From an uncultured SAR324 cluster bacterium (GTDB lineage Bacteria; SAR324; NAC60-12): DNA of 21,467 nt. Shown in pieces: positions 84 through 17,226 of the stretch. Position 1 is the first letter of the stretch; each line of letters starts with the position of its first letter. The notes beneath the pieces are model-generated. The model saw only the letters and a list, made by a program, of their open reading frames with translations, had not been told where the DNA came from and searched no databases. The stretch spans positions 1-21,467 of the forward strand of contig CABXOR010000030.1 in assembly GCA_902513935.1 (NCBI GenBank). The letters are read 5' to 3'. The translations under genes and the position numbers were made by a program.

Positions 84-305
84 TCTGGTTTCATGATTAA
101 GTTTAGAAAAATAGAGACAACTAAATAAATTCTGTAATCCAACAAAAAATCAATCCTAGCTATGTGGAGTTGAGTTTTTTTAAATTTTTTAAAATCTATC
201 ACCATAAGTTTTATTTTAAGAGAGATGGTAAGGATAATGGAGACTCAGTTCCTGTTTGATTAACTCCACTAAATCTTCTCAGTTATAGTTCCTGACAAAA
301 TTCTA

Positions 306-1085: not shown

Positions 1086-1374
1086 TTGTGTTAAGTCTCC
1101 TTTTAGTGTAAAAAACCAAAAATTCCTATTGCCACAGTCGGCACATTACCAAATCGTATATAGAGTAAAGTTCGTTTAGCAGTCTAAATTTGAACACCAA
1201 GGATATACAAACACCAGCAAGATGCCGTAATAGATTTGTATGTAGTTACTCAGACCGCTGGATCTAGGTAGCAAACAATCGTCTAATCAAGTAGTTGAAA
1301 ATATCGAGTACTTAGTTGATGGAAAAACGAGTAACCTTGTTTTTTGACAACTTATTTATTAAAAAAATTTAGGT

Positions 1375-2382: not shown

Positions 2383-2678
2383 GCTGTAAATTCCTTATGA
2401 GATTGATAAGTCAAGCTTTGCCCTGCAATGAAACAATCTAACAATTATTCTCGATTCGCTGAATGAGAGAAGTGAACGTTGGAACAAGTTTAAGTAACTG
2501 TAAGACTGAGGATTATAAGCTAACCGATTTTAATCATTTATTATTGCAATAAATAGGATGAAGGTCATCTACAAAATAGATTTTCTCTTGATATTTATTA
2601 AGCAAGAGACAGAAATGATCGTCTCATACTCCGAAAGGCTGATTTCCAATTACCGCTGCACTGTTGTGCATAGACTTT

Positions 2679-4457
2679 CTAATTGATCTGGTACCGTTCT
2701 GGATAGACTCTAACACTGGGGACTTTACCCACACGTAGTTCATTCTGAATACGCTCATAGTAATCTACTTGCAGCAAGTCACCATGTACCTTCCTAAACA
2801 ATTGTCGAAGAGAGCGATTGGGTATTCTAAGGCCAGATTCTATTTCCTCGGGCAGGAATATCACACCGTCCTCAAAGAACCACTCTGGAATATCTTCTTC
2901 TCCTTCGAACTGGTTCTGATTAGTGCGGATCTTAACTTCAGTAAACTGTTCCAGAGCGTCGTAATCAAACAAGTAAACTCCTCCGAATTTACCGACACCA
3001 TAGTTTCTGGCATCGAGGTCCTTATTGAATATATTGGCAGCCATATTGTTTTTGATGCAGTGCCCAAGATTGATTATTGCGGCCTCGCTTTCAGCCTGAG
3101 ATGAGTTTTCGAGGTAGACGGGCAAAGGGATCAATTTACTCTGTACGATAAGGTGTCTGAAAAATAGAGATTCACCTTGCAGTGTCACACACTCACTCGC
3201 GTCGTTCAAAAGTTCTTGCAGTAGTGCATTGGTGAACCAAGCTTTTTCAAGTTTAACGCGATAGAAAATAATGTTGTCCAGCATACTGCCTGTCCGATTA
3301 ATAACGTGGACACGACCGTATTTTTCCAGCACAGAGGGAACTCCTTCAAACATTCCCCACTTATATTGCTCAGTAGGTGTATTACGAATAACTTTAAGAT
3401 TGTACCCCGATTGAGGGGACTGGAAACCTATTGCAACAGTACCCTTAAAACCTATAGCAAAATCAAGTTTCTCACCAGTAGATAAGAGTTCTTCCTTCAA
3501 TTCTTCCATTACTGCAACTTTACCAAAATGATTAAATCCAATTGTAGAATAGGCTAGCCCCAGAGATCGTTTTGGTATAATACTGTGAAGAAATTCTGAA
3601 AGTTCGTGATAATAATCGTTGTTAACATGAAAGTTTGCCCGGGTTGTACTGAAAATATTGAAAGTGGCAGACTCTGAAGTGAGAATCGCATCAACATAAA
3701 TCCCTTTCTCATCATTCAGCAAGGCGATGACAAGTGGCACCTTTGCATGATTATCAAGTACAATTCTTCCGACGATGTAGGCACCCCGATTACGGTAAAA
3801 CTCTCCTTTAATGACTTCGATTTTATGAATTTTATATGTGCTGAATCTGTCATCCAGATCAACTTTAACTCTTTGTGCTGCCAATATTGCGTCCACCTTC
3901 AGTTCACGATACTGGGCTTTGAATCCAGGGACACGGAGTATATTAATAAGAAGGTCAGTGGTGATTAATTCCGTTTGAAAAGTTTCGAACAGAAAGTTAG
4001 AAAAGTTTGTATTGGCCTTTCTTGGGGTATCGAAGGAATACGCTACGGGGCTCCATTCTCCTAGGAAGAGCGACCTACGAACTGAATGAATATATGCCAG
4101 AGCAAGGTCCCCTTCATAACGGTTTCTAACAAGCTGACGATATTTTTTTTCAATTACTTCCCATAGTGCCTGATCTCTCGAAATAGGAGAGAAAGCATCC
4201 GCAAGCTTTTCTCCCAATTTGAACATACTGTCACTGTATAGAGACAGTCGTTTCCTGCTAATTGTCAGCGACGCTTGGTATTCGCGAGTTTCGAATGCAG
4301 TCTTTGCTGATTCTGTTATCGTCTTGAAGCTGGAATAAAAAAGATCAAATTCCCAAAGAGCCCATTGAGCCAGAAGATCTGTTTTTTTGTTGTCGGAGGC
4401 CTTTTCAATTAAACCTTTAAAGTGAGTGTTATCTGATTGAGTCATGTAGCTGGTCAT
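2679..4457 (-). CDS. aceK: Isocitrate dehydrogenase kinase/phosphatase (AceK)
   Basis: A 592-residue protein, close to the usual AceK length, recognisable along its whole length. The N-terminal regulatory half includes GEFYRNRGAYIVGRIV (219-234), matching the ELFYRNKAAWLVGK region of E. coli AceK. The kinase half has the ATP-binding Lys in YNLKVIRN (K355), the conserved Asp in SMLDNIIF (D394), the catalytic loop NIFNKDLDARNYGV (D480, N485) and the metal-binding FDYD (D498, D500), followed by FTEVKIR. AceK phosphorylates and dephosphorylates isocitrate dehydrogenase, steering isocitrate between the TCA cycle and the glyoxylate bypass. In enterobacteria it sits in aceBAK; here no aceA or aceB is adjacent. 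It is divergent from tctC over a 311-base gap. There is no strong Shine-Dalgarno; the ATG at 4457 is kept, with an alternative ATG four codons later (4445). Confidence 0.93.
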   Translation of the reverse strand: MTSYMTQSDNTHFKGLIEKASDNKKTDLLAQWALWEFDLFYSSFKTITESAKTAFETREYQASLTISRKRLSLYSDSMFKLGEKLADAFSPISRDQALWEVIEKKYRQLVRNRYEGDLALAYIHSVRRSLFLGEWSPVAYSFDTPRKANTNFSNFLFETFQTELITTDLLINILRVPGFKAQYRELKVDAILAAQRVKVDLDDRFSTYKIHKIEVIKGEFYRNRGAYIVGRIVLDNHAKVPLVIALLNDEKGIYVDAILTSESATFNIFSTTRANFHVNNDYYHELSEFLHSIIPKRSLGLAYSTIGFNHFGKVAVMEELKEELLSTGEKLDFAIGFKGTVAIGFQSPQSGYNLKVIRNTPTEQYKWGMFEGVPSVLEKYGRVHVINRTGSMLDNIIFYRVKLEKAWFTNALLQELLNDASECVTLQGESLFFRHLIVQSKLIPLPVYLENSSQAESEAAIINLGHCIKNNMAANIFNKDLDARNYGVGKFGGVYLFDYDALEQFTEVKIRTNQNQFEGEEDIPEWFFEDGVIFLPEEIESGLRIPNRSLRQLFRKVHGDLLQVDYYERIQNELRVGKVPSVRVYPERYQIN

Positions 4458-4651
4458 TATATATTTTCATTGTGTATTCGCCATAGAATTAAAGTAAAGG
4501 TCAAAAATGTTTTCATCTAGCAAGCTCAAAAAGTGGTAATCGGTTTGTTCAAAAAGAGTTTAAAATCCTTCTCGATTCACTTTTCTTTAAATGACGAAAA
4601 AGAATTAAATCTGAATATTTGCGAAATCGTCAAAATATTAGAAAATAATCC

Positions 4652-4680
4652 TTGACATGTCTTTAAACATAGCATAAATT
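4652..4680 (+). promoter_or_regulatory. Putative sigma70-type promoter for tctC
   Basis: A perfect -35 box TTGACA (4652-4657) is followed after 17 bases by TAAATT (4675-4680), a four-of-six match to TATAAT. Transcription would begin near 4687, leaving a leader of about 80 bases before the tctC ATG. This leader holds the repeats listed at 4692-4740. Predicted from sequence only. Confidence 0.45.
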
Positions 4681-4691
4681 TTATTCGAGTA

Positions 4692-4740
4692 GTACTATTC
4701 TGGTACTATTTCCGGTTCCTGGAGCAAACTGTTTCAGGAA
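4692..4740 (+). promoter_or_regulatory. Direct repeat and inverted repeat in the tctC leader
   Basis: GTACTATT occurs twice in tandem (4692-4699 and 4703-4710), 11 bases apart, about one helical turn. It is followed by an inverted repeat TTCCTG (4715-4720) / CAGGAA (4735-4740). Both lie just after the predicted transcription start and before the ribosome-binding site. They could be an operator for a regulator or an RNA hairpin. No regulator gene is visible in the window. Confidence 0.3.
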
Positions 4741-4768
4741 AATCCTAACCTCTAGTCAGGGAGTCAAT

Positions 4769-5755
4769 ATGATAAAAATGATAAAAAAACATTTTGGTCT
4801 TTGGTCATTCATTTTCGCAGGCCTTGCGATGTTACTCATGCCTATGTCAGTATCGGCATGGAAACCTCAAAAACCGGTTGAGTTTGTGATCATGGCCGGG
4901 GCGGGAGGAGGAGCCGACAAGATGGCGCGTCTGATGCAAGTGCTCATTGAGAAAAAAGGATGGTCCTCCATGCCACTTACTCCGATCAATAAGCCCGGTG
5001 GCTCTGGAGCCGAAGCCTTGGTGCATCTGAAAAACAGAGCAAATTCGGATCCTAACCACACCATCATGGTAACTCTGAACAGTTTCTATACGACACCTCT
5101 AAGACAGCCTAAGCTTGGTGTCGATATCTTGACCTTCACCCCTGTTGCACGTATGGCCGAGGACACTTTTTTATTGTGGGTCCACAAAGATACAGGGATT
5201 ACTAACGTTGATCAGTTCGTGAGCGCGGCCAAGTCAAAGGGCAGTGGCTGGATCATGGCTGGAACAGGAAAGTTGCAGGAAGATCAGTTGCTGACTGACT
5301 TCCTGAATGCGGCATACGGTCTGAACATGAAGTACGTTCCCTATAAGGGTGGTGGTAAAGTGGCCAAGCAGCTCGCCGGCAAGCACGCCAACTCTACGGT
5401 TAACAACCCTTCCGAGCAGATGGGTTTCTACGAGGCTGGGACCACGGTTCCGCTCGCAGCCTTCACTGCAAAGCGATTGCCGATGTTCCCCAACGCACCA
5501 ACCTTTAGTGAATTGGGCAAGGACTATGTATACTACATGCAGCGCAGCGTTGTCGGTGCTCCCGGCATGAGCTATGCGGCAGCGTCGTATTACCAGAGAC
5601 TATTCAGAAAAGTCTTCGATTCTGATGAGTGGCAGAAATATCGCAAGAAAAAAAGCCTCATGGGGGATTTTATGACTGGTACTGAGTTACAGGACTACTG
5701 GCAAAAAGAGCGTGATATTCATGAAAACATCCTCAAGAAAATGGGAGCATTATAA
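4769..5755 (+). CDS. tctC: Tripartite tricarboxylate transporter substrate-binding protein (TctC family)
   Basis: A 328-residue periplasmic binding protein of the TctC/Bug family. Residues 1-30 form a classical Sec signal peptide (basic start, hydrophobic core, cleavage predicted after SVSA). The mature part shows family signatures: VEFVIMAGAGGGADKMAR near residues 37-54, INKPGGSG at 73-80, and YVPYKGGGKVAKQLAGKHA in the second lobe. TctC proteins bind carboxylates and deliver them to the TctA/TctB membrane complex. The ATG at 4769 is chosen because AGGGAG (4758-4763) lies 5 bases upstream; the ATG at 4778 would be 14 bases away. It heads the plus-strand cluster. The membrane genes expected next survive only as a scar (5799-6075); intact tctB and tctA lie 5-7 kb away on the other strand. 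The ligand is unknown; the lyase and CoA-transferase downstream suggest a 2-hydroxy acid or oxalate-like acid. Confidence 0.92.
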   Translation: MIKMIKKHFGLWSFIFAGLAMLLMPMSVSAWKPQKPVEFVIMAGAGGGADKMARLMQVLIEKKGWSSMPLTPINKPGGSGAEALVHLKNRANSDPNHTIMVTLNSFYTTPLRQPKLGVDILTFTPVARMAEDTFLLWVHKDTGITNVDQFVSAAKSKGSGWIMAGTGKLQEDQLLTDFLNAAYGLNMKYVPYKGGGKVAKQLAGKHANSTVNNPSEQMGFYEAGTTVPLAAFTAKRLPMFPNAPTFSELGKDYVYYMQRSVVGAPGMSYAAASYYQRLFRKVFDSDEWQKYRKKKSLMGDFMTGTELQDYWQKERDIHENILKKMGAL

Positions 5756-5777
5756 GAATCGTCTGGGAAAAAACTAG

Positions 5778-5843
5778 GATCAGAAAAGTTTCACGGGTAT
5801 GAGGCATGCCGAAATAGTAGCAGCTATTCTGCTGGCAGTTTTA
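5778..5843 (+). repeat. Inverted-repeat copy A: tctB 5' end plus leader
   Basis: This block matches 12561-12625 on the opposite strand. It covers about 20 bases of leader (GATCAGAAA then a pyrimidine-rich tract and GGGT before the ATG) and the first 15 codons of tctB; 40 of 45 coding bases are identical when aligned by eye, and the leader has two or three differences and one gap. Conservation upstream of the start codon shows that this is homologous operon DNA and not just a conserved protein motif. Confidence 0.8.
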
Positions 5844-6075
5844 CCCTAGATTACTTTTCTGGTTCCCCAGATGGGCGCGATCGGATTCTTCATAATATTT
5901 TATTATGGATTTAAGTATGGGTGAGAAAGTAGCTCAATCATACTTGAAATTCTATTTGATTGTAAAACAGAAGCACGTTGAGGCCCTAGTCGCAAATATA
6001 GTAAATATCCAGTTGATCCTGCCTGAGGTTAAGACCCTAAATAATCCATATTTACCGCTAATTAACATCAAATAA
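5799..6075 (+). pseudogene. Scar of tctB and tctA (fused remnants with internal deletions)
   Basis: An ATG opens MRHAEIVAAILLAVLP, nearly the N-terminus of intact TctB (MRRAEIVAAILMAIL), then hits TAG at 5847. Reading on in the same frame gives ITFLVPQMGAIGFF, then a segment with FYYGFKYG, a TGA at 5922, and SSSIILEI. These match TctA residues about 51-85 (MTFLVPPASAIIFL, LYYGAMYGG, ISSIMLGI). Further on, 5992-6075 reads IQLILPEVKTLNN and ends at TAA, matching the TctA C-terminus (ILLILPAVKPLKR). So the start of tctB, a piece of early tctA and the end of tctA remain, with two large deletions and several stops and shifts. The scar lies between tctC and the lyase gene and shows the ancestral order tctC-tctB-tctA-lyase. 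No functional product is expected. Confidence 0.85.
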
Positions 6076-6100
6076 TAACTATCAATAAATTAAGGACTAA

Positions 6101-7840
6101 ATGAGAGGCCAACCTGCATCTAAAACAGCTACAGACACCTTAGCAAAAAAAAGTAAATCTGAAGATGTAATTTCTGGAGGACATCTGGTCGCAAAAGCTT
6201 TGAAAAACGAGGGAGTTGATACCATCTTCACACTCTGCGGCGGACACATTATCGATATCTACGACGGATGTCTCGATGAGGGGATACGCATTATTGACGT
6301 ACGGCATGAACAGACGGCCGCACATGCTGCCGACGGCTATGCCAGGCAGACTGGTAAGCTCGGCTGCGTAGTCACTACCGCAGGTCCTGGATGTACCAAC
6401 GCCATGACTGGTGTCGCTACGGCTTTTCGCTCAGAAAGTCCAATTCTTCATATCGGTGGTCAAAGTTCACTTACACAGCATAAGATGGGGTCTCTACAGG
6501 ACCTGCCACACGTGGATATTATGACCCCAATCACCAAGTTCGCAGCTGGTGTCATGTCCACGGAACGGGTGGCGGATATGGTATCAATGGCTGCGCGTGA
6601 ATGTTTTAATGGAGCTTACGGCCCAAGCTATCTTGAAATTCCTCGTGACGTACTTGACAGGGAAGTTCCCGTAGAAACAGCTGTTATTCCAGAACCAGGC
6701 TGCTACCGAGCCTCTGTCAAAGCTATTGGAGACCCTGTCGATGTAGAGAAACTTGCAGACATTCTGGTGAGTGCGGAACGTCCGGCAATGCTGGTAGGCT
6801 CACAGGTGTACATGTCTCGAGGACATCAGGAAGCCATCGACCTAGCCCGCAAGCTGAACATAGCCCTTTATATGAATGGAGCGAGCCGTGGTATTCTGCC
6901 TCCTGGTGACCCGCACTACTTTAATCGCACTCGTTCTAGTGCATTTAAAAAAGCGGATGTGATAGTCATTGTTGGTACCCCCTTCGACTTCCGGATGGGA
7001 TATGGCAAACGCATAAGCAAAGAAGCAACTCTTATTCAAATCGATCAAGACTACCGTACTGTAGGGAAGAACCGGGACATTGCGCTGGGATTGGCTGGTG
7101 ACCCGGGAGCCATCCTTGCAGCAGTTCTTCAGGCCACGACAGGTGGAAAAAACAATGGTGCTAAAAGCCGTCAGTCTTGGTTAAATCTACTCAGAGAAGA
7201 GGAGCAAGAGAAAACGAAAAAAATCATGACCATGTTCCAGTCGAATGCTAATCCCATACATCCCTATCGACTTGCTTGGGAAATCAACGAGTTCCTTACG
7301 GATGACACCATCTACATAGGCGATGGAGGAGACATTGTAACCATTTCTGCTCAAGCCGTGCAACCACGTAAGCCAGGGAACTGGATGGACCCTGGAGCAC
7401 TCGGATCTCTCGGTGTAGGAACCGGATTTGCAATGGCGGCAGGGCTTGCCCACCCGAAAAAAGAAGTGGTTTGCCTTTATGGAGATGGTTCCTTTGGTAT
7501 GACTGTTTTCGATATGGAAACTGCTAACCGGTTTGGTGCACCATACATTGCCATTGTCGGCAACAACTCACACATGAACCAAATCCGCTATGGACAGATC
7601 ACCAAGTACGGGGAGGAACGAGGTAATATAGGAAACAAACTTGGCGATGTTCCATTTGGGTCGTTTGCGGAAATGCTTGGAGGTTTTGGGGCAGAGGTTC
7701 GTGAACCAAATGATATTCAACCGACATTACAGCAAGCCCGAGAATCTGTAAAGTCGTCTGGGAAATCGGCGGTGATAAACGTTTGGGTTGATCCGAATGA
7801 ATACGCCCCTGGCACCAAGGCTCAGACCATGTATAAGTAA
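6101..7840 (+). CDS. ThDP-dependent 2-hydroxyacyl-CoA lyase-like enzyme (oxalyl-CoA decarboxylase/HACL family)
   Basis: A 579-residue ThDP enzyme with the three usual domains: N-terminal Pyr domain with the catalytic Glu in RHEQTAAHAADGYAR (E70), a central domain (about 215-345), and a C-terminal PP domain with the ThDP/Mg motif GDGSFGMT...NN (GDG 461-463, NN 488-489). In oxalyl-CoA decarboxylase the active site has Tyr120-Glu121 (Oxalobacter numbering); aligned by eye, the equivalent here is Leu132-Gln133 (GSLQDLP), which fits 2-hydroxyacyl-CoA lyases better. The RYGQITKYGEERG segment and the C-terminal GTKAQTMYK tail also resemble, from memory, actinobacterial 2-hydroxyisobutyryl-CoA lyases. 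Such enzymes cleave 2-hydroxyacyl-CoA to a carbonyl compound and formyl-CoA. An AAGGA site (6092-6096) lies 4 bases before the ATG. The next genes handle formyl-CoA and folate-bound formyl groups. A decayed second copy lies at 10290-10480. Oxalyl-CoA decarboxylase remains an alternative. Confidence 0.82.
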   Translation: MRGQPASKTATDTLAKKSKSEDVISGGHLVAKALKNEGVDTIFTLCGGHIIDIYDGCLDEGIRIIDVRHEQTAAHAADGYARQTGKLGCVVTTAGPGCTNAMTGVATAFRSESPILHIGGQSSLTQHKMGSLQDLPHVDIMTPITKFAAGVMSTERVADMVSMAARECFNGAYGPSYLEIPRDVLDREVPVETAVIPEPGCYRASVKAIGDPVDVEKLADILVSAERPAMLVGSQVYMSRGHQEAIDLARKLNIALYMNGASRGILPPGDPHYFNRTRSSAFKKADVIVIVGTPFDFRMGYGKRISKEATLIQIDQDYRTVGKNRDIALGLAGDPGAILAAVLQATTGGKNNGAKSRQSWLNLLREEEQEKTKKIMTMFQSNANPIHPYRLAWEINEFLTDDTIYIGDGGDIVTISAQAVQPRKPGNWMDPGALGSLGVGTGFAMAAGLAHPKKEVVCLYGDGSFGMTVFDMETANRFGAPYIAIVGNNSHMNQIRYGQITKYGEERGNIGNKLGDVPFGSFAEMLGGFGAEVREPNDIQPTLQQARESVKSSGKSAVINVWVDPNEYAPGTKAQTMYK

Positions 7841-7910
7841 CTGATAGGGTGAGCAATGTTTACCTTTCTCAAGGTAAAAACTATAAAAATATTCTGATAT
7901 AAAGGCGATA

Positions 7911-9155
7911 ATGGAAAAAGCTCTGGAAGGTGTCCGTATTTTGGACATGACCCATGTTCAATCTGGACCGACCTGTACCCAACTGCTCGCATGGTTTGGA
8001 GCTGATGTAATAAAGGTGGAACGACCTGGTGTTGGAGACGCTACGCGAGGTCAATTGCAAGATATTCCGAACGTGGATAGTCTCTACTTTACGATGCTGA
8101 ACCACAACAAGCGCAGCCTCACGCTGAACACCAAGAATGCCAAGGGTAAAGAGATCTTTGCCAAGCTCATCAAGCATTGTGACGTGATGGTCGAAAACTT
8201 TGCTCCCGGTGCCATCGACCGTATGGGATTTCCCTGGGAGAAGATTCAAGAAATTAATCCGCGAATGATTTACGCCTCAGTTAAGGGATTTGGACCTGGT
8301 CCATTTGAAGATTGCAAAGTCTACGAAAATGTTGCCCAATGCACTGGAGGTTCTGCCTCTACTACAGGTGAGCTTGACGGATTCCCTATGGTAACAGGTG
8401 CGCAGATCGGCGATTCTGGCACTGGGTTGAACTTAGCGTTTGGGATTAGCACTGCCCTGTTCCACCGGGAAAAAAGCGGCCGCGGCCAGCGTATTACATG
8501 CTCCATGCAGGACGGAGTGTTGAACCTATGCCGGGTCAAACTGCGAGACCAGCAACGCCTGGCACATGGACCATTGAAAGAATACCCGCAGTACCCGAAC
8601 GGTGAATTCGGCGAGGCGACTCCTCGCTCAGGCAACGCTTCAGGGGGAGGCCAGCCCGGTTGGATTGTGCGATGCAAAGGCTGGGAAACCGACCCGGATG
8701 CTTACAGCTATGTAATTACTCAAGCGGCAGCTTTCCCTGCACTTGCCAAGACCATTGGTCACGAGGATTGGTTGGAGGACCCGGAATGGTCTACTCCGGA
8801 AGCCCGCCTGCCTAAGCTCGATAAAGTCTTTGAGGAAATCGAGAAGTGGACTAAGACCAAGACCAAGTTCGAGGTTATGGACATCCTCAATCCACTCAAC
8901 GTCCCCTGCGGTCCTATTCTCAGTATGAAAGAGTTGGCGGAGGAGCCTTCGCTTAGAGCGACCGGTACCATTGTCGAGGTCGATCATCCTGAGCGCGGCA
9001 AATACCTGACGGTTGGAAACCCTATCAAACTTTCGGATTCGCCGACAGACGTTCAACGTTCACCGCTATTGGGTGAACATACGGATGAAGTCCTGACGGA
9101 GATTGGACTCAGCGGTGCCGAGATTGCTGCTGCTAAGGAGGAAAATGCGGTGTAA
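7911..9155 (+). CDS. Formyl-CoA:oxalate CoA-transferase-like protein (class III CoA-transferase)
   Basis: A 414-residue family III CoA-transferase, closely resembling Oxalobacter Frc and E. coli YfdW (slightly shorter, mainly in the loop near residues 220-240). Matching stretches include [59 protein letters not shown] and [11 protein letters not shown]. The catalytic Asp that forms the acyl-aspartyl anhydride is D168 (IGDSGTGLN). Position 48 is Gln (RGQLQD), as I recall for YfdW, where Oxalobacter Frc has Trp48. The glycine loop over the active site reads SGGGQ instead of GGGGQ. The likely reaction is transfer of CoA from formyl-CoA to a carboxylate, giving formate and an acyl-CoA substrate for the lyase upstream. 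The start has AAAGG (7901-7905) 5 bases away. It lies 70 bases after the lyase gene and 30 before the formyl hydrolase gene, so these are probably one operon. Oxalate is the default substrate, but a 2-hydroxy acid is equally possible here. Confidence 0.88.
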
Positions 9156-9185
9156 CTTGTTCAGAAAAGGATGTGAATTTTTTCC

Positions 9186-10103
9186 ATGCGACTGATCATC
9201 ATGGGCCAGCAGGCCTTCGGCAAAGATTGCCTGGAAGCAGTCTTGGAAAAAGGCAAGGACGAAATCGTTGCTGTCTACTGTGCGCCCGACAAAGAGGGTA
9301 AGCCGGTGGACCCGATCAAGGAGTTCGCGCTGGAGCAGGGACTTCCAGTCGTCCAGCCACCCAACTTCAAGGACAAGAAGGTTTTGGACGAGATACGTGC
9401 GCTCCGCGCCGATCTCTGCGTTATGGCCTATGTGACGATCTTCGTACCCGAAGCAGCCCGTGACATTCCGACCCACGGCTCCATCTGCTTCCATCCGTCA
9501 CTGTTGCCCAGGCACCGAGGTCCAAGCTCCATCAATTGGGCACTCATCGGAGGCACAACCAAGACGGGACTGACATTTTTTTGGCCGAACGACGGCCTGG
9601 ACGAAGGAGAAATACTTTTGCAGAAGGAGGTTGTAGTTGGTCCGGACGACACGCTCGGCACCATTTATTTCCAGAAAATCTTTCCTTTGGGAATCGAGGC
9701 CGCTTTGGAGGCGATTGACCTTGTGCGCTCCGGAAACCCGCCACGCATCCGGCAGGACGAATCTCAGGCAACTTACGAATCTTGGTGCAAGCATGAGCAT
9801 GCCGAAATTGACTGGTCACAGCCGGTTGATGAGGTGTATAATCTGGTTCGGGGGACCAATCCGCAACCGGGTGCATGGACTATTCACAATGGCGATGTGC
9901 TGAAAATTTTTGATTGCTCCAGAGTCGAGGTAACCGGTACTCCCGGTGAAGTGGTACAGGTAACAGAGGCTGGTTTCTCAGTAGCCGCCTATGGAGGCGG
10001 AATCCTGGTGCACCGAGTTCGTCCTGTCAACGACAAGAAAATATTGGCGGCTGAATTTGTATCAAAGAGTGGTCTTTCAGCTGGAGTTATTCTAGGAAAC
10101 TGA
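9186..10103 (+). CDS. Stand-alone formyltransferase/10-formyl-THF hydrolase-like protein
   Basis: A 305-residue protein with an N-terminal formyl_transf domain (about 1-185) and a C-terminal domain (about 205-300). It resembles the hydrolase domain of ALDH1L1 (10-formyltetrahydrofolate dehydrogenase) more than methionyl-tRNA formyltransferase: MRLIIMGQQAFG aligns with its N-terminus, and FHPSLLPRHRGPSSINW, FFWPNDGLDEGEILLQKE, ATYESW and RGTNPQPGAWT all have close counterparts there. Catalytic His103 and Asp139 are present with the same 36-residue spacing as His106/Asp142. The residue two before the His is Cys101, where Fmt has Asn and ALDH1L1 has Ile. Expected chemistry is release or transfer of the formyl group of 10-formyl-THF; transfer from formyl-CoA to THF is a speculative alternative suggested by the neighbours. 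The AAAAGGA site (9165-9171) is 14 bases from the ATG, rather far, but the homology starts exactly here. It is the last gene of the plus-strand cluster. Confidence 0.85.
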   Translation: MRLIIMGQQAFGKDCLEAVLEKGKDEIVAVYCAPDKEGKPVDPIKEFALEQGLPVVQPPNFKDKKVLDEIRALRADLCVMAYVTIFVPEAARDIPTHGSICFHPSLLPRHRGPSSINWALIGGTTKTGLTFFWPNDGLDEGEILLQKEVVVGPDDTLGTIYFQKIFPLGIEAALEAIDLVRSGNPPRIRQDESQATYESWCKHEHAEIDWSQPVDEVYNLVRGTNPQPGAWTIHNGDVLKIFDCSRVEVTGTPGEVVQVTEAGFSVAAYGGGILVHRVRPVNDKKILAAEFVSKSGLSAGVILGN

Positions 10104-10289
10104 ACGACTAAACGTAATGGAAATTCTACTGGAGGATTTGCGATTAAATCAATACGGATAACCTAGTCCGGAGCTTGATGGCACAAGGACAGTTGTTTCC
10201 CAATCCACTGATTTTCAGGTTTAACTGTAACTGAGTACCATACAGCTACCGGCGGGAATAAGATCAATAAATATGATGTACTAACCTCT
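10104..10289. other. Convergent gap after the formyl hydrolase gene, no recognised feature
   Basis: This stretch lies between the 3' end of the plus-strand cluster and the recognisable end of the lyase pseudogene on the minus strand. It may hold more decayed operon sequence (remnants of the lyase, CoA-transferase or formyl hydrolase), but I could not align any part with confidence. No clear hairpin-plus-T-run terminator is visible on either strand. Confidence 0.4.
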
Positions 10290-10480
10290 CCTTAGGCTTC
10301 GTGCTCCTCCATCTGTTCATTCCGCACGTCAATGATGCATACTCTTTCGTCAAGACATCAGTCTTAAATGTTGATTATGTGTCTTTTGCAGAATGTGGAG
10401 ACAGAATCAATGCCTTGGTTCTTTAAAGCTTTTGAGGCAAGATGCCCCACCTAAAATGATATCTTCTTATCGGCTTTTCT
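10290..10480 (-). pseudogene. Decayed N-terminal fragment of a second 2-hydroxyacyl-CoA lyase gene
   Basis: Read on the minus strand, 10444-10291 translates with two in-frame stops as LASKALKNQGIDSV, STFCKRHIINI, CLDERVCIIDVRNEQ. The intact lyase at 6101 has LVAKALKNEGVDTI, FTLCGGHIIDI and CLDEGIRIIDVRHEQ at residues 29-71; 28 of 49 positions are identical by eye. The first part (to about 10480) also aligns at the DNA level after a one-base shift in the GGAGGACAT region. It starts right after the tctA stop codon, so this copy had the order tctB-tctA-lyase. After about 10290 I cannot recognise further homology. It cannot make a functional enzyme. Confidence 0.85.
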
Positions 10481-10490
10481 CTATAATATG

Positions 10491-12011
10491 TTAGGATGTT
10501 TCACTGTCAGTTCCTGGGAAGAAATGCCTTTTCAGTGGCTTGACAGCCGGCAGGATCAACAGGATGATTGCTATAATCGTGATGGGACCTGCAATGGGCC
10601 GGGTGAAAAAAACAGAAAAATCCCCGTTTGATATAAGAAGCGACTGGCGTAACGCAGGCTCTGCAATAGGTCCTAACACAATGGCAAGCACTGCTGGGGC
10701 AAGTGGATAATCCAGCTTGCGTAGCATGTAAGCCCCTACTCCAAAGATTAGCATGAGCCAGACATCATGCATGTCCTGGGTAGGTGCGTAGCCACCTACG
10801 AGGCAAAGTACAAAGATTATAGGAGCCAAAACGGTGAATGGCATTTTTAAGACCCATAAGAAAACAGGAATAAATGCCAAATTGATTAAGACTGCGAAAA
10901 AATTTGCTACATAAAGAGAGCCAATCAATCCCCAGACAAACTCCTTTTCCTCGACGAAAAGCAGTGGTCCCGGTGTCAAGCCCCAAATGACCATTCCCCC
11001 CAAAAGAATCGCCGTAGTCGGAGAACCAGGAATACCGAGGGTGAGCATAGGCAAAAGTGATCCTGTCGAAGCGGCGTTGTTAGCAGATTCAGGTGCTACC
11101 ACTCCAGCCACTTCTCCCTTGCCGAAATTACCAGGTTCTTTGGATGTCATTTTAGCTACTCCATAGGCCATGAGAGAACCTGGAGTTGCGCCGGCAGCCG
11201 GAAGAATTCCTACAAAAAATCCCAACACGGATCCTATTGTCCACGAGAACCACGTGCGCCCCATGTCTCGTATACTGTCTATAATCCCGCTTATGGAAAT
11301 TACAGCTTTAGACATGGCGCTGTCCTCACGGTTGCTCTCAATTGTCCACATCATTTCACCTATTCCGTAGATGCCAATCGCCAAAACTAGAAAATTGATT
11401 CCATGCATAAACCCGATTATATCGAAAAATATTAGTCTTGGCTCTCCCGACATAATATCCAGGCCCACTGTACTAAATACTAAACCGATACAGATAGAAA
11501 AAATGGTTTTTGGGATATCATCTCCGCTGAGGCCAACAAAGGTTGCAAATGCAAGGAGCATCAACGCGAAGATCTCTTGGTCTCCAAAGTCCAGGGCAAT
11601 ATTGGCAAGCATGGGAGCGAAACCGGTAAAAAGTAATATGGAAATGGTACCCCCAATGAAGGAAGCCATCGCTGCGGTAATCAATGCTTTATCGGCTTTA
11701 CCTTTAAGGGCCAGAGGTCGACCGTCAAAGGTTGTTGCTACGGCTGTGGAAGCACCAGGGATTCCAAGCATGATTGAGCTGATTGCTCCACCATACATTG
11801 CTCCATAATAAAGTGCTGCAAGAAAGATAATCGCACTCGCAGGTGGAACCAGAAAAGTCATAGGCAGTAATATTGCCACTCCGTTCACAGATCCCAAACC
11901 TGGCATGGCTCCAATGAACAATCCGACAATTACCCCGACTATTATTACTAAGAGGTTGAGCGGCTGGAACGCGATGATAAAACCATCCAGAAGAAGTGTT
12001 ATTATATCCAT
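10491..12011 (-). CDS. tctA: Tripartite tricarboxylate transporter large membrane subunit (TctA)
   Basis: A 506-residue, very hydrophobic protein with the usual TctA length and motifs: GLFIGAMPGLGSVNG (30-44), YYGAMYGGAISSIMLGIPG (68-86), TTFDGRPLALKGKADKAL (93-110), a repeated GILPAAGATPGS motif in the second half, and TLGIPGSPTTAILLGGM. About ten to twelve transmembrane segments are expected. TctA is the channel-forming subunit that couples carboxylate uptake to an ion gradient, working with TctB and the periplasmic TctC. It follows tctB after 96 bases on the same strand; its ribosome-binding site is weak (TAAGAA just before the ATG). The cognate tctC is probably the one at 4769 on the other strand. 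Pieces of a second tctA lie in the scar at 5850-6075. The stop codon is followed at once by the decayed lyase fragment. Confidence 0.95.
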   Translation of the reverse strand: MDIITLLLDGFIIAFQPLNLLVIIVGVIVGLFIGAMPGLGSVNGVAILLPMTFLVPPASAIIFLAALYYGAMYGGAISSIMLGIPGASTAVATTFDGRPLALKGKADKALITAAMASFIGGTISILLFTGFAPMLANIALDFGDQEIFALMLLAFATFVGLSGDDIPKTIFSICIGLVFSTVGLDIMSGEPRLIFFDIIGFMHGINFLVLAIGIYGIGEMMWTIESNREDSAMSKAVISISGIIDSIRDMGRTWFSWTIGSVLGFFVGILPAAGATPGSLMAYGVAKMTSKEPGNFGKGEVAGVVAPESANNAASTGSLLPMLTLGIPGSPTTAILLGGMVIWGLTPGPLLFVEEKEFVWGLIGSLYVANFFAVLINLAFIPVFLWVLKMPFTVLAPIIFVLCLVGGYAPTQDMHDVWLMLIFGVGAYMLRKLDYPLAPAVLAIVLGPIAEPALRQSLLISNGDFSVFFTRPIAGPITIIAIILLILPAVKPLKRHFFPGTDSETS

Positions 12012-12107
12012 TTCTTAGTTAATTAATGTTTTTGTAAATGAATCAAATAAAATCAATAAAGCCAAAATCACTAAGCGCCTGTGGTTATTTCAGAAACAAT
12101 AAAAATC

Positions 12108-12605
12108 CTAAAGGAAAAAACTGTACAGCGGAAAGAAAAGAGGTTCCAAATACCCCTTTGGCAAAACAATTCTCAGAGCAATGTCGAAGAAGAAGAAGAT
12201 TATGACAGGTGCAAAGAGTCCAACCAAAATCGTGATGATCCAAGAATGGCCACCCAAAAATCTGAGATAAAACAACAGAAATAACGGAATGCTCCCATAC
12301 ATCCCTATAATATGAACCAAACCAATCATCACTGTTAACGCACCACCAACCAAAATAAACATCCTTAATGCGTAGGCATCCATGAATGAATTTTGCGAAT
12401 TGGATGGCGGAGTTAAGTGGCGATACCAGTTGACCATCGTCCACAGGCAACAGACCAACATTATGGCTGCAAGCCAGAAAGGGAATGCTCCTCCTCCTGG
12501 CCCTTCATCAGCGATCCAGCCGATAGGCAATTCAGCGCTCTTCCACATCAGATAAACCGATAAAATTGCCATCAGTATAGCTGCAACTATTTCGGCACGC
12601 CTCAT
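12108..12605 (-). CDS. tctB: Tripartite tricarboxylate transporter small membrane subunit (TctB)
   Basis: A 165-residue membrane protein of TctB size. It has hydrophobic segments at about 7-20, 41-58, 82-101, 103-117 and 122-145, and the family-typical GPGGGAFPFW stretch (36-45) before the second segment. TctB is the small subunit needed for TTT transport, with no known catalytic residues. Sequence conservation in this family is low, so the call rests on length, topology, the glycine-rich motif and the position directly before tctA. The first 15 codons and about 20 bases of leader are repeated in inverted orientation at 5778-5843. The ATG overlaps the stop codon of a small upstream frame (ATGA). 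Confidence 0.88.
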   Translation of the reverse strand: MRRAEIVAAILMAILSVYLMWKSAELPIGWIADEGPGGGAFPFWLAAIMLVCCLWTMVNWYRHLTPPSNSQNSFMDAYALRMFILVGGALTVMIGLVHIIGMYGSIPLFLLFYLRFLGGHSWIITILVGLFAPVIIFFFFDIALRIVLPKGYLEPLFFPLYSFFL

Positions 12606-12625
12606 ACCCTTGAACCTTTCTGATC
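12561..12625 (-). repeat. Inverted-repeat copy B: tctB 5' end plus leader
   Basis: Partner of 5778-5843 on the opposite strand. It comprises the 5' end of the intact tctB and about 20 bases before its start codon. The differences from copy A are mostly at third codon positions, so the two copies diverged some time ago or came from related but different sources. Confidence 0.8.
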
Positions 12626-12826
12626 TATCTGCGTGTTGAGATGCGAAATTTGTTTCATTATCATTGAGAACTGACCATCTTTAGCTATATAGGATTTGGC
12701 GAGATGTGCGCCCTCAACCAAGCTTTCGTGCTTAATGTTTTCAAAAGCGGATTCGTTGGCAAAATGATGAATTTTGTATTTTTTTGGATCTTTCACGACA
12801 ACTCTTTTGGGAATCGTAATCCACAT
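12602..12826 (-). CDS. Small hypothetical open frame upstream of tctB
   Basis: A 74-codon frame whose TGA overlaps the tctB ATG (ATGA), which would allow translational coupling. I do not recognise the product; it is mixed-charge, without a signal peptide or membrane segment. There is no Shine-Dalgarno sequence before its ATG. Its last six or so codons lie in the leader block that is conserved, but non-coding, upstream of the scar at 5799. This argues against a real gene; the frame may be chance. Confidence 0.22.
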   Translation of the reverse strand: MWITIPKRVVVKDPKKYKIHHFANESAFENIKHESLVEGAHLAKSYIAKDGQFSMIMKQISHLNTQIDQKGSRV

Positions 12827-13129
12827 TACTCAATAAATATGAACCGGATTTCATCGTAATCCACTTTTTACATGAAAATAGCGATTCTTGAAAAACGACT
12901 AAGGGATACTGAATACGAACGTGCATTTTTCCACAAGCTGGAAAAGATAGCAATAAAATATTTGCTGTCTTCCTTAAATAGCAGTTAAACCATGATTTTA
13001 AAAATATTATTAAAATGCTCCTTTTTTTTAGTGCCGCTCAAACAAAAATTAGTTGTATAAAACCGAGGAAGATGGGAGAAAATAAATTATGCACGTTATA
13101 TTTTTATATTCACATTTTCACTTTTACCA
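12827..13129. other. AT-rich gap between tctBA and the YheT-like hydrolase
   Basis: About 300 bases between the small frame upstream of tctB and the 3' end of the hydrolase gene. It should contain the promoter for tctBA, but I see no convincing -35/-10 pair on the minus strand. I looked for a remnant of a second tctC, as predicted by the operon order, and found none that I could align. Confidence 0.4.
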
Positions 13130-14098
13130 TTAATTTAGATTGCCCAATTGTTTTTTAAAAAATTCTGGAATTCTGGTTTCTATCCAACCATAATTTTTCC
13201 AAAGATTTCCATTGATGAATCCAGCATGACCACCCTTTGGAAGGAATTCAAGTTCTACCGTGTCCGATACTTCTTTTGGACTGGGGAAAGTATTTTTATC
13301 CAGGAAAGGATCATCCAGTGAGTTCATAATGAGTGTTGGAACACAGATTTTATTGAGGTATTGTCTACAGGATGATTCAGAATAATAGTGATCAGCATTT
13401 CCGAATCCATGTAAAGGAGCCGTAACCCTTTCGTCAAACTCTCGTAAAGTCTTTATTTTATTCAAATCACCTGGATTAAACAAAGGTGGTAGATCCCGGA
13501 ATTTTCGTTTTGCTGATTTACGTAACAGATTGACAAAATGACTCTGGTAAATCCTTGAAAATCCTTTCTCCAGGATGGAAGTTGAAGAAGCAAGGTCGAA
13601 AGGTGTAGATACCGCGGCAGCAGCACTTATTCCAGCGCTATTCCCTTTTTCTCCAAGCCATTTCAATAGAGTATTCCCGCCAAGTGAGTATCCGTAAACC
13701 ATCAATGGAATATCAGGGTATCGTGTTTTTACCAGATTGACGACCAAGTCCAGGTCACCAGTTTCACCAGCATGATAGGTCCGCTGAAGCCTGTTTGAAA
13801 ACCCGCCACAGTTTCGGTTAAGCAGAAGGACTCCATTCCATCCTATTTTGCTAATAACTCCAAACATGGCTTTGACATTATTAGAGGAAAAATCTCCTTC
13901 CAAACCGTGAACTATTATTACAATCGGCCCGTTCCCTTCAGTTAACCAGTACAAATTAATGAAATCTCCATCATCAAGTTCTATTTGCTCTTTCTTGGTG
14001 TCTGGAGAAGGAAGGGATCTAAATCTGGAAGCCCAAATGGTTTGCCAGTGTGGGCCTGGCAACCAACAGCTCGGACGAAATACTGATTTCACTTTCAT
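13130..14098 (-). CDS. YheT-family alpha/beta hydrolase
   Basis: A 322-residue alpha/beta hydrolase of the YheT/EMB8-like group. Diagnostic features are LPGPHWQTIWAS near the N-terminus (13-24), the oxyanion-region HGLEGDFSSN (64-73), NRNCGGFSNR (95-103), the nucleophile elbow YGYSLGGN (S138), the acid in LDDPFL (D262 or D263) and the catalytic His in KGGHAGFI (H291). Members are predicted esterases or hydrolases; the physiological substrate of the bacterial proteins is not established. No signal peptide is seen, so it is probably cytoplasmic. The ribosome-binding site is weak. It is on the same strand as the dienelactone-hydrolase-family gene, about 280 bases away. Confidence 0.88.
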   Translation of the reverse strand: MKVKSVFRPSCWLPGPHWQTIWASRFRSLPSPDTKKEQIELDDGDFINLYWLTEGNGPIVIIVHGLEGDFSSNNVKAMFGVISKIGWNGVLLLNRNCGGFSNRLQRTYHAGETGDLDLVVNLVKTRYPDIPLMVYGYSLGGNTLLKWLGEKGNSAGISAAAAVSTPFDLASSTSILEKGFSRIYQSHFVNLLRKSAKRKFRDLPPLFNPGDLNKIKTLREFDERVTAPLHGFGNADHYYSESSCRQYLNKICVPTLIMNSLDDPFLDKNTFPSPKEVSDTVELEFLPKGGHAGFINGNLWKNYGWIETRIPEFFKKQLGNLN

Positions 14099-14376
14099 TT
14101 AGATAATTTACTGGAATTGAGTATTAATCTTTATTTTAGTCCGTACAGGATTAATTTGTATAAAATTATACGTTGTCAAATATGGAGATACAAGGAGCTA
14201 AAAGCAGGATCTGTGTTATATAAAATACTTTCTGAATTGAATTGAAAATTATTAGTTGATAGTGGCTTTGTATGAATTAGCCGGGAGAAATGGGATTTAC
14301 TTTTATGGGGATAATTTTGAACAGTAACAAGTGGCATTGTGGAGAGCGCAGGATTCGGATCCGACTACTCTTCCAT

Positions 14377-15105
14377 TTACTTAAGATTCCTTTCAAACAA
14401 GGTCAAGATTCTATACCAGTGCCTTTCTGCAGAAGTCCTGTGATATTTTTCCTTTCTATCTGGGAATACGAACCCGTGTTCGGTCCCTGGATACCATTCT
14501 ATTCGATAATTAATGTCTGTTTTAGCAAGATGTTTTTTCAGGGATTCAATCATTTCCCTGGGAACCCACACATCGTTTTCAGCACAGCCAAAATAAATTT
14601 CTCCCTTTATTTTATGGGAACTTAGATGAGGTGATTTCTCTGAGTCTGTGAAAAGTTCAACACCATGAATGCTCGCGGTGGCTCTGATTCGATCATTGAT
14701 TTCAGCTGCTGCCGCAAATACGAATTGTCCGCTCATGCAGTAGCCCAGACAACCCACTGGCCCTTGAGAAGCAGTTTCATCTTTAAGTGCCTCTTTTAAG
14801 AGATGTCTACAATCTTTTACTACCATCTCATTACTAAGACTATTCTTGTGCTCAAACATGATCTCCCGACTTTTATCTGTTCCATCTGAAACAAATTCTG
14901 TGACACGACGATAATAAAGATTTGGCAGCATGACCCAATATCCACAGGCAGCAATTCTTCTCGCCATTTGGTGGAGTTCTTCCCTCTTTCCCGGTGCGTC
15001 CATCAAAAAAAGAATTACGGGATGTGGACCATCTTCGTCCGGATGAACAATGAAGGTGTTCATTTGACCTTCACCTGTATCAGTGGTTATTTCTTTTTCC
15101 TGCAT
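14377..15105 (-). CDS. Dienelactone hydrolase family protein
   Basis: A 242-residue alpha/beta hydrolase with the Cys-Asp-His triad of dienelactone hydrolases: GYCMSGQ (C123), ENDVWVP (D178) and GTEHGF (H210). The N-terminal strand and oxyanion region (PVILFLMDAPGKREE, 29-43) are also typical. Classical members open dienelactones in chlorocatechol breakdown, but most genomic members have unknown ester or lactone substrates, and no aromatic-degradation genes are nearby. It is cytoplasmic, with no signal peptide. The start ATG has no strong ribosome-binding site. The 278-base gap downstream, to the YheT-like gene, holds nothing I recognise. Confidence 0.88.
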   Translation of the reverse strand: MQEKEITTDTGEGQMNTFIVHPDEDGPHPVILFLMDAPGKREELHQMARRIAACGYWVMLPNLYYRRVTEFVSDGTDKSREIMFEHKNSLSNEMVVKDCRHLLKEALKDETASQGPVGCLGYCMSGQFVFAAAAEINDRIRATASIHGVELFTDSEKSPHLSSHKIKGEIYFGCAENDVWVPREMIESLKKHLAKTDINYRIEWYPGTEHGFVFPDRKEKYHRTSAERHWYRILTLFERNLK

Positions 15106-15290
15106 AATTGATTAGATTTTTTAGTGTGTCAGAAAATGATTAAATATATATTAAATCAAAAAATTATTTGTCACATTCAGGACTCTTTTTTATTCAAAAT
15201 ATTTATTCTTTTTGGGAATATAATTACTAAAAGGTTCTCAAATTTTTTATATTGAATATTCTGTCAATAATTTCAAACTGGACTAGAAAT

Positions 15291-15324: not shown

Positions 15325-17226
15325 TTATTGATCAGGCATTCCCAATGATTGAAGTACTTTAACGTAATCATTCATAAATTCTTTTGGTCGTGAATTAACG
15401 AAATCAAAATTTTCTATCCACCATTTAGTAATGCTGTTTTTCATGGTTTTTTGCTTTTCAAAATGAACTTTTGCTAATTTTACATCGCCCTCTTTGTGGT
15501 ATATGTATGCTAAAACTGTATGAAAAGTTTCTCTGGCACCGGCATAAACATAATCTTTATTAGATTGCTCTAAGGCATATTTTTTTGCTTTTTCATAATC
15601 TCCACTTTTCTCCTCGAATGTTTTCATCATTATAGCAAAGAGATAATATACTTTTACCCATGCAGAGTAATGAGGAGCAATTCTATGAACTTTCTCATAA
15701 GTTTTAATTGAACCGTCGTAATCACCGCACGAGCGCTGCGTATCTGCTACCATTGCGATGTCGAGAACTACTTCACTTAATATACTCATCTTATCTATTC
15801 TTCCGCAGGCAGCATCAAAATCTCCAAGTGTTTGTTCAATCATGGCTGCAATGGACATCGCACCTACATAATCAGGATCTTTTTCAAGAACACCTAATGC
15901 TAATCTGAGAGCTTTTTTTAAGTCCTCCTGAGGTTTCTTTGATATTCCCAACCACGTTTTTTGTACAAGTTGCCACGCTCTATTTACATCAAGATAGAAG
16001 TTATCTGGTTCAAGTTTTTTATTAATTTCCCATAACTCTTCAGCCCTATAATGGCCTTCAGGAGTCATTAGTTGGAATGCTGTGGTACCTAATAAATTAT
16101 TTTTATAAACTTCTGGGGTAAAGAGTCTTTTTAAAGCAGTAGATTCAACGCCTCCTAGAGTAATTTCTATCTGTAAATGACTAAGAACAGAACTTCCTAC
16201 TTGGTCCTGGATATTAAAAATATCATCCTCTGAAAAATCATAAATTTCAGACCAGATTATGTCATTCTTAGCAAGATCTTTGAGTTCTACATTTATGCGA
16301 GTTTTGTTTCCAGAGACTTGTATTCCTCCTCCTAAAACAAACTGAACACCATATGTTTTTACAATGTCCTCATCGGAAACCTGATTCTTTTGTAAGTATT
16401 CACCGGTACTTTTCCCGAGTACCAATAATTGTTCATGCTGAGACAAAGTTGTAATCAGATGACTGGTCATGCCATTTCCAATATAATCATTTTCTTTCTT
16501 TCCTGACTGATTGGCAAACGGCATGACTAGAATCGCCGGACGATCTGAAGAAGTCTCAACAATTTTTATATTTTTTTGATCAGTTTTTTTAATTGAGAAA
16601 TTATAATAAGCAAAGCCACCAATGCCCAGGACAAGAATTCCAACAATTGCCGTGATAAGAGGTACTTTTGATTTCGATTTAGTTTTTACTGTTCGTTTGT
16701 GTGAATCATCTATAACAACATCAAAGGCATGAAATATATTGTCCTTTACAGTTTGCTCACCCAAATCATTAAATAAGAAGTCCATCTTTTTATTAATAAA
16801 CTCATGAACACTCCTTGAAAGACATACTCCATTTGGTTGAGCAAGAGCTTCTAGACGTGCGGCAATGTTGACACCATCACCATAGAGATTATCTCCTTCT
16901 ACAACGACATCTCCCATGTTAATGCCAATACGAAATTCCATTTTCAGATCAGATGTCTCTGACTCGTTCCTTTCCTGAATAAGCCTCTGGAATTCTGTTG
17001 CACAGATGACTGCAGATACGGCACTCGAAAATTCGGCTAGTACAGAGTCTCCGGCGGTATTAAAAATTCTGCCATCGTGTTCTTTAAAAAGATCTTCAAG
17101 GATTTTTTTGCAGGCTCTAAAATTCTTGATGGTCTGATCTTCGTTTTTCTCAACAGATTTGCTGTATCCAACAACGTCAGTTGCAAAAATTACTGCAATC
17201 TTACGTTCAATCTCTTTAGTAGCCAT
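15325..17226 (-). CDS. Class III adenylate/guanylate cyclase with TM anchor, TolB-like domain and TPR region
   Basis: A 633-residue protein. The class III cyclase domain spans about 8-175: metal-binding Asp in FATDVVGYS (D17), second metal Asp in FNTAGDSVLAEF (D60), and transition-state residues in DGVNIAARLE (N120, R124). The position often held by the adenine-recognising Lys reads Asn in this subgroup, so nucleotide specificity is open. A basic linker (178-187) leads to one membrane segment (about 188-207). Residues about 229-355 form a TolB/FlgO-like domain (RPAILVMPFANQSG, YGVQFVLGGGIQ), followed by helical TPR-like repeats to the end. It probably makes cAMP or cGMP in the cytoplasm in response to a signal sensed by the periplasmic C-terminal part. 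The module from residue 98 to 204 is nearly identical in DNA to the paralogue at the right edge. No cognate receptor is visible. Confidence 0.9.
   Translation of the reverse strand: MATKEIERKIAVIFATDVVGYSKSVEKNEDQTIKNFRACKKILEDLFKEHDGRIFNTAGDSVLAEFSSAVSAVICATEFQRLIQERNESETSDLKMEFRIGINMGDVVVEGDNLYGDGVNIAARLEALAQPNGVCLSRSVHEFINKKMDFLFNDLGEQTVKDNIFHAFDVVIDDSHKRTVKTKSKSKVPLITAIVGILVLGIGGFAYYNFSIKKTDQKNIKIVETSSDRPAILVMPFANQSGKKENDYIGNGMTSHLITTLSQHEQLLVLGKSTGEYLQKNQVSDEDIVKTYGVQFVLGGGIQVSGNKTRINVELKDLAKNDIIWSEIYDFSEDDIFNIQDQVGSSVLSHLQIEITLGGVESTALKRLFTPEVYKNNLLGTTAFQLMTPEGHYRAEELWEINKKLEPDNFYLDVNRAWQLVQKTWLGISKKPQEDLKKALRLALGVLEKDPDYVGAMSIAAMIEQTLGDFDAACGRIDKMSILSEVVLDIAMVADTQRSCGDYDGSIKTYEKVHRIAPHYSAWVKVYYLFAIMMKTFEEKSGDYEKAKKYALEQSNKDYVYAGARETFHTVLAYIYHKEGDVKLAKVHFEKQKTMKNSITKWWIENFDFVNSRPKEFMNDYVKVLQSLGMPDQ
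16614..16936 (-). repeat. Direct repeat copy 1: cyclase catalytic/TM module
   Basis: This stretch matches 21145-21467 on the same strand with about 9 differences over 323 bases counted by eye, all synonymous in the shared frame. It encodes the second half of the cyclase domain, the basic linker and the transmembrane segment. Similarity stops abruptly at the codons after GIGG. On the other side it is limited only by the window edge, so the repeat is probably longer. Confidence 0.9.

Follow-up and report, generated by a model that had tools for sequence, protein, structure and literature searches.

The genes of a tripartite tricarboxylate transporter and of three associated enzymes are divided over the two strands of a 21,467-nucleotide stretch of DNA from an uncultured SAR324 cluster bacterium (contig CABXOR010000030.1 of assembly GCA_902513935.1; the whole stretch is hereafter called the window), and each of the two units also holds decayed remains of genes that are intact in the other. 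Inverted duplication of one operon in a SAR324 lineage, followed by complementary loss, is very probably the origin of this arrangement. The case is built on homology between the units, gene order, decay of the lost genes, purifying selection on the retained ones, and presence of the arrangement in other assemblies. The intact genes are as follows.

4769..5755, plus strand: tctC, periplasmic binding protein of 328 amino acids, intact (Pfam TctC, 72.7 bits)
6101..7840, plus strand: thiamine-diphosphate (TPP) lyase or acetolactate-synthase-like enzyme of 579 amino acids, intact (Pfam TPP_enzyme N, M and C)
7911..9155, plus strand: type III CoA-transferase of the formyl-CoA transferase family (Pfam CoA_transf_3; TIGR03253)
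9186..10103, plus strand: formyltransferase-like protein, hereafter the formyl gene (Pfam Formyl_trans_N and _C)
10491..12011, minus strand: tctA, large membrane subunit, intact (Pfam TctA, 481 bits)
12108..12605, minus strand: tctB, small membrane subunit, intact (Pfam TctB, 60.6 bits)

All three transporter subunits, TctA, TctB and TctC, score above the Pfam cut-off. The plus unit (tctC, lyase, CoA-transferase and formyl gene) and the minus unit (tctB and tctA) converge tail-to-tail, which leaves tctC about 6.4 kilobases (kb) from tctB and on the opposite strand. The scars sit in the 345-nucleotide gap between tctC and the lyase gene and in the 387-nucleotide gap between the formyl gene and tctA.

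Relics of lost genes in both units

A blastn comparison of the plus stretch 4700-10290 with the reverse complement of 10104-13129 returned four co-linear inverted matches between the units at E values up to 0.004, and a separate repeat search gave the same pairs (I1-I4). The features delimited by these matches are listed here.

5778..5843, plus strand: outer repeat arm, 21 nucleotides of tctB leader and tctB codons 1-15 (88% identical to the reverse complement of 12561-12625, E 9e-18)
5844..5976, plus strand: decayed start of tctA, boundaries approximate (blastn 5833-5950 against the reverse complement, 11878-11761, 70%, E 5e-8)
5997..6041, plus strand: decayed end of tctA (76% to the reverse complement, 10575-10531, E 0.004)
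10309..10478, minus strand: start of a second, decayed lyase gene, immediately behind tctA (6161-6317 against 10466-10309, 73%, E 1e-21)
12561..12625, minus strand: the other outer repeat arm, tctB start and 20 nucleotides of leader (pairs with 5778-5843)

The first-pass annotation of the window had described a plus-strand scar with the start of tctB and the start and end of tctA between tctC and the lyase gene, and a decayed lyase start directly behind the minus-strand tctA. Both descriptions are borne out: alignment of the scars with the opposite copy, the check it had proposed, gives significant matches to tctB, tctA and the lyase gene, the score of the plus scar against the window's tctBA was reached by none of 200 dinucleotide shuffles, and that of the minus spacer against the plus lyase-to-formyl stretch by none of 60. 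The non-coding leader ahead of tctB takes part in the homology, as had also been noted, and in one relative (G002, below) so does the promoter region. The tctB remnant in the plus scar (5799-5849) forms a 16-codon open reading frame (ORF) ending in TAG.

Differences between the lyase relic and the window's lyase gene number 16/7/23 at codon positions 1/2/3, compared with 2/0/15 over the same stretch between the intact lyase genes of the window and of a relative, G001; for the tctA-start relic the counts are 10/15/15, compared with 1/0/23 between intact genes. A single inserted base is present in the lyase relic, and the relics contain frameshifting gaps, whereas the intact genes change almost solely at third positions. 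By these substitution patterns, the scars are pseudogenes. The ratio of nonsynonymous to synonymous substitution rates (dN/dS) between the window and G001 is 0.049 for the lyase gene, 0.048 for the CoA-transferase gene, 0.077 for the formyl gene, 0.062 for tctA and 0.094 for tctB, and for tctC it is 0.085 against G016 and 0.079 against G002. Over all computable pairs, the operon genes of both strands give 0.02-0.09, with dS above 2 in some pairs; no ratio was calculated where synonymous changes were saturated (lyase and CoA-transferase genes in both G002 pairs, formyl gene in the window-G002 pair). To judge from these ratios, purifying selection acts between species on each of the six operon genes.

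Relatives and the ancestral gene order

The search for relatives covered 52 genomes of the SAR324 phylum, and a full-length lyase of at least 75% identity was found in three of them (G001, G002 and G021), with a partial one, cut by a contig end, in a fourth (G012). Several of the named proteins among the matches listed (120 for lyase and 120 for tctA) come from SAR324 or Deltaproteobacteria genomes, and no relative of tctA was found on viral contigs. On the 6,466-base contig of G001 (L001) the convergent layout of the window recurs between the scar and part of tctB; tctC is not on this contig and was not found in the G001 assembly. The plus scars of G001 and the window match one another (score 273 for the whole scar, reached by 0 of 200 shuffles), and the tctA-end relic of G001 aligns with tctA residues 473-505 at 58% amino acid identity (E 7e-5) and contains two in-frame stops. 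Because the scar is common to G001 and the window over both tctA pieces and up to the lyase start, the loss predates their split.

The complete locus is present on a 28,411-base contig of G002 (G002:C46; L113), which carries tctC, a scar, the lyase, CoA-transferase and formyl genes, and then tctA and tctB on the opposite strand. Ahead of tctB on its minus copy, this genome retains a decayed tctC start and promoter region (299 nucleotides, 75.6%, E 1.6e-49), and the tctC relic scores 293 against a shuffle mean of 29, a score reached by 0 of 200 shuffles. Hence the unit that was duplicated extended from the promoter at least as far as the start of the lyase gene. In the plus scar of G002 only the leader and tctB start are recognisable, against that genome's own tctBA (z 6.5), the middle of the scar being too decayed to show whether it has a deletion junction in common with the window. 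Different remnants of such a duplication survive in related genomes: the lyase start in the window, the promoter and tctC start in G002, and the tctA scar in the window and G001. With tctB and tctA relics on the plus strand, and a lyase relic (window) and a tctC relic (G002) on the minus strand, the annotation's proposal of reciprocal loss that split one operon over two strands is well grounded.

Other relatives hold parts of the system. In G021 all genes lie on one strand in a lyase-first order. In G014 an intact tctC on the panE side (L178 9738-10724; dN/dS 0.077 against G002) is followed by a few tctB codons, the remainder being cut off by another gene, and no close tctB or tctA was found in that genome. 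The ORF behind this tctC resembles, by eye, a chemotaxis receptor. G016 is 93% identical to the window over bases 1-5842 and carries parts of 12624-15127.

The ancestral order was read from 83 loci, namely 79 of the best 80 out of 594 confirmed genome loci, together with L001 (the eightieth), L113, L114 and L127. Complete reading frames of tctC, tctB, tctA and lyase are present in 34 of the 83, and in 24 of these 34 all four lie on one strand in the order tctC-tctB-tctA-lyase, as the annotation had deduced from the scars. Seven of the other complete loci have the lyase gene first and then tctC-tctB-tctA, two have the transporter genes on the opposite strand, and one (L113, the G002 locus) shows a split like that of the window, in a set that is blind to genes lying far apart or cut by contig ends.

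Phylogenetic trees place SAR324 tctC, tctB and tctA each beside L039, a Kiloniellaceae bacterium (support 89/83, 98/93 and 99/95), and this shared sister indicates that tctC and tctBA travelled together. The sister of the lyase is L002, a Rhodospirillales bacterium (support 100/100), and since this differs from the sister of the transporter genes, transporter and lyase together make up a mosaic operon. When the relics were scored against the intact SAR324 genes and the 83 other loci, an intact SAR324 gene came first in seven of eight comparisons, the eighth being the 78-nucleotide tctB scar of G002, whose score is at noise. The tctA scars of the window and G001 score best against the tctA of the window or G001, ahead of the 83 other loci, with a clear lead for the window's tctA-end scar only through the window gene itself. 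A separate origin of the minus-strand tctBA, which the annotation had named as what would overturn its proposal, is contradicted by the common sister of the three transporter trees and by these best matches.

A probable inverted duplication and its alternatives

The proposed course of events starts from a catabolic operon with the order promoter-tctC-tctB-tctA-lyase and the CoA-transferase and formyl genes behind, which would have been copied in inverted, tail-to-tail orientation in a SAR324 lineage. With two copies present, each gene would have become expendable from either one. In the plus copy, internal deletion and decay would then have removed tctB and tctA, and from the minus copy tctC and the lyase gene would have gone, together with any later enzyme genes that it once had. 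The outcome would be two convergent units that between them hold one complete tripartite transporter and its enzymes. Exchange of sequence seems to have continued between the short outer arms (tctB leader and start).

A number of observations weigh against this account. The rest of the window's minus spacer (10104-10308) shows no trace of the later lyase, CoA-transferase or formyl gene (z 0.4; equalled by 77 of 200 shuffles), and the region upstream of minus tctB (12606-13129) shows no trace of tctC (99 of 200 shuffles equal). No minus-strand promoter-like site was found in window 12339-13000. A lyase relic is undetectable in the minus spacers of G001 and G002, and the plus scar of G002 is not recognisable against the tctBA of either the window or G001 (z 2.0, with 12 of 200 shuffles equal, in each case). 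Nothing of window 5843-12560 was found in G016, whose contig stops there. The nearest transporter relative, L039, has the lyase-first order, and the example of G014 demonstrates that tctC can persist alone. The tctC relic of G002 groups with that genome's own tctC to the exclusion of its positional counterpart in G014 (bootstrap 85), a grouping not predicted by one old duplication without later conversion, and the other short relic trees place their relics weakly (bootstrap 55-75).

The grouping of the G002 relic also speaks for an alternative in which the lineages of the window and G002 underwent independent inverted duplications and arrived at the same final division of genes. The flanks point the same way: in the window tctC faces aceK-panE-faa and a small ORF lies beside tctB, while in G002 aceK-panE and a second faa-type gene are the neighbours of tctB, and a GGT gene is that of tctC. 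Two duplications are nonetheless unlikely, since the same convergent layout with the same division into tctC plus enzymes and tctBA would hardly be reached twice, and gene conversion between inverted copies could account for the affinities of the relics. The conflict in G002 could thus be explained by gene conversion and inversion between the copies, or by a second duplication. A larger duplication taking in aceK, panE and the GGT gene was also considered, since it would account for the position of aceK-panE next to tctC in the window and next to tctB in G002; no relics were found at the expected places, the small ORF is wrongly oriented in G016, and the proposal is unproven.

It is very improbable that two operons of separate origin became inverted neighbours, with losses from each of them and no duplication involved. 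The different closest relatives of lyase (L002) and transporter (L039) do speak for more than one source at some time, but the relics score best against intact SAR324 copies in all but one comparison, plus-strand tctC and minus-strand tctBA have the same sister, and the leader (window) and promoter region (G002) are common to both copies. A simple inversion of tctBA that split one intact operon would by itself yield the convergent layout, the scars then being chance matches or breakpoint duplications. This is improbable in the extreme, because the plus scar holds separate, co-linear inner pieces of tctA and the minus strand holds a lyase start, and both scar and spacer beat their shuffles. An assembly artefact at the repeat arms would fit with the struggle of assemblers at this point: the G001 contig begins at window base 5844 (by ungapped extension of the alignment) and ends at 12560 and a G016 contig ends at 5842, so that three contig ends, from two assemblies, coincide with the arms' inner edges, and the right junction of the window at 12625 is in none of the other assemblies looked at. 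The whole locus is, however, spanned by the single contig G002:C46, and G001:C244 holds scar-lyase-frc-fmt-tctA and part of tctB on one contig, so that an artefact too is highly improbable.

Bacterial gene order is quick to change, and inverted duplication with complementary loss at this locus has relatives among described processes. Copies being lost after duplication usually leave, to our knowledge, no trace. Tandem inversion duplications of bacteria also form inverted adjacent copies, and are young amplifications under selection; unlike them, this locus is decayed, with its layout present in several genomes. Like tctCBA operons it has all three Pfam families under purifying selection, and unlike them it has tctC apart from tctB and on the other strand. 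According to the SNAP model, as outlined by Brandis and Hughes (2020, PMC7055797), gene order is proposed to change when a segment is duplicated and its two copies then lose different genes, and here likewise a segment was duplicated, different genes were lost from each copy and gene order was altered. As outlined there, the model is a hypothesis with modelling, whereas at this locus the decayed remains of both copies are readable, the duplicate is inverted, and the end result is a single operon spread over two strands. A study of operon clusters in Gammaproteobacteria and Bacilli (Brandis 2021, PMC8046335) likewise proposes asymmetrical loss after duplication for gene-order changes, and states that exactly how the alterations came about could not be established; here the scars make the steps readable. 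No inverted duplicated operon with relics in both copies appears in the titles and opening lines of abstracts of the literature searched, in which subscription journals are mostly uncovered. The locus is a well-preserved example of reciprocal loss after duplication, here in an inverted pair: a known process in unusual form whose intermediates are readable, and the steps from one operon to two opposed units can be followed directly. It also offers a testable case of an importer whose binding protein and membrane parts are separated and each kept by selection, and another of possible ongoing exchange between inverted copies.

Outer arms, flanks and predicted function

The pair of outer arms is 88% alike in the window, as against 70-76% for the other scars, and the plus arm of G016 shares a 36-nucleotide exact run with the window's minus arm and one of only 14 nucleotides with the orthologous plus arm. 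The contig ends at the arms' inner edges are expected if the arms are near-identical repeats in those genomes. Among the contigs of the matches listed (120 for lyase and 120 for tctA, out of 7882 and 7997 found), 14 distinct lengths fall in 6.35-6.75 kb, compared with 7 and 4 in the adjacent bins of 400 bases; breakage of assemblies at the arms would produce such an excess, although the evidence is weak. The greater conservation of the window's arms than of the relics is suggestive and not significant (Fisher p 0.08, from alignment counts taken by hand). The outer arms look as if they have been homogenised more recently than the scars they flank, and the copies may not have simply decayed apart.

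Conversion between the arms is the modest reading of this pattern and flipping of the segment inside them the bold one. That 5778-5843 and 12561-12625 act as active inverted repeats, so that the 6.7-kb inside segment can flip, is quite unlikely. The window's own arms have at most 12 consecutive nucleotides in common, which does not favour flipping in the window's own strain now; the 75% likeness of the arms of G002 and the non-significant conservation test in the window also weigh against it. Were it true, the tctC promoter would read tctC-lyase-CoA-transferase-formyl gene in one orientation and an unbroken tctC-tctB-tctA in the other; complementary decay would have made the duplicated operon a heritable two-state arrangement, and conversion would maintain the likeness of the arms.

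Two further features lie at the outer ends of the units.

4652..4680, plus strand: sigma-70-like promoter of the plus copy, TTGACA-17-TAAATT (10 of 12 consensus positions; consensus match only)
12602..12826, minus strand: small ORF truncated at the tctB leader, marking the right breakpoint of the minus copy (74% amino acid identity to G016:C5:36806-37012)

The promoter is one of 8 such sites among 20 found, with 12.1 sites in all in shuffled sequence. Its counterpart in G002, TTGACA-17-TATTGT, occurs twice (6104-6132, plus strand; 14076-14048, minus strand), and this pair makes up two of three 10/12 sites among 22 found, in a scan that is noisy overall (15.3 in shuffles). The second promoter copy of G002 presumably drives tctBA. 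DNA homology between the window and G016 on the right flank begins at about 12624. The small ORF has no Pfam match, and its relatives were found in only two of the 52 SAR324-phylum genomes, G016 and G002. In G016 the relative shares a contig with the GGT gene and lies to its left, beside ORFs that by eye resemble succinate-dehydrogenase/fumarate-reductase subunits, and these different neighbours indicate that the window's right flank is at a different place. The alpha/beta hydrolase gene at 13130-14098 is intact in the window and broken by an internal deletion in G016.

The CoA-transferase scores above the cut-off of the formyl-CoA transferase (Frc) equivalog TIGR03253 (694.6 bits, cut-off 504.2). 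The lyase falls below the curated cut-off of every NCBIfam model among the 25 shown of 52 matched (best PRK05858, 443 of 587), including 2-hydroxyacyl-CoA lyase NF058623 (361.6 bits against 600) and oxalyl-CoA decarboxylase TIGR03254 (220.3 bits against 739.4); by sequence, the solved proteins closest to it are 2-hydroxyacyl-CoA lyases, the best being 7pt3. In the pathway suggested by these family assignments, TctC-TctBA would import a 2-hydroxy or similar acid, the formyl-CoA transferase would move CoA from formyl-CoA onto the imported acid, the TPP lyase would cleave the acyl-CoA to formyl-CoA and a carbonyl product, and the formyl group would be released or transferred. TctC likely still works with TctBA across the strands, as the annotation had predicted; the support for this is indirect, coming from the purifying selection on all parts, and the lone tctC of G014 speaks against it. 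The faa, panE and aceK genes (306-4457) recur near the operon in Pseudomonadota, aceK in at least 8 of 80 loci (L007, L013, L020, L023, L025, L027, L035 and L046; many of the loci being truncated), which hints at a common pathway linked to the glyoxylate shunt.

Elsewhere in the window, two adenylate-cyclase-type genes have 300 nucleotides in common at 97% identity (16601-16900 and 21132-21431), and stretches resembling this repeat occur in G002 at 87-94% identity, which suggests a repeated gene family, perhaps with conversion among its members.

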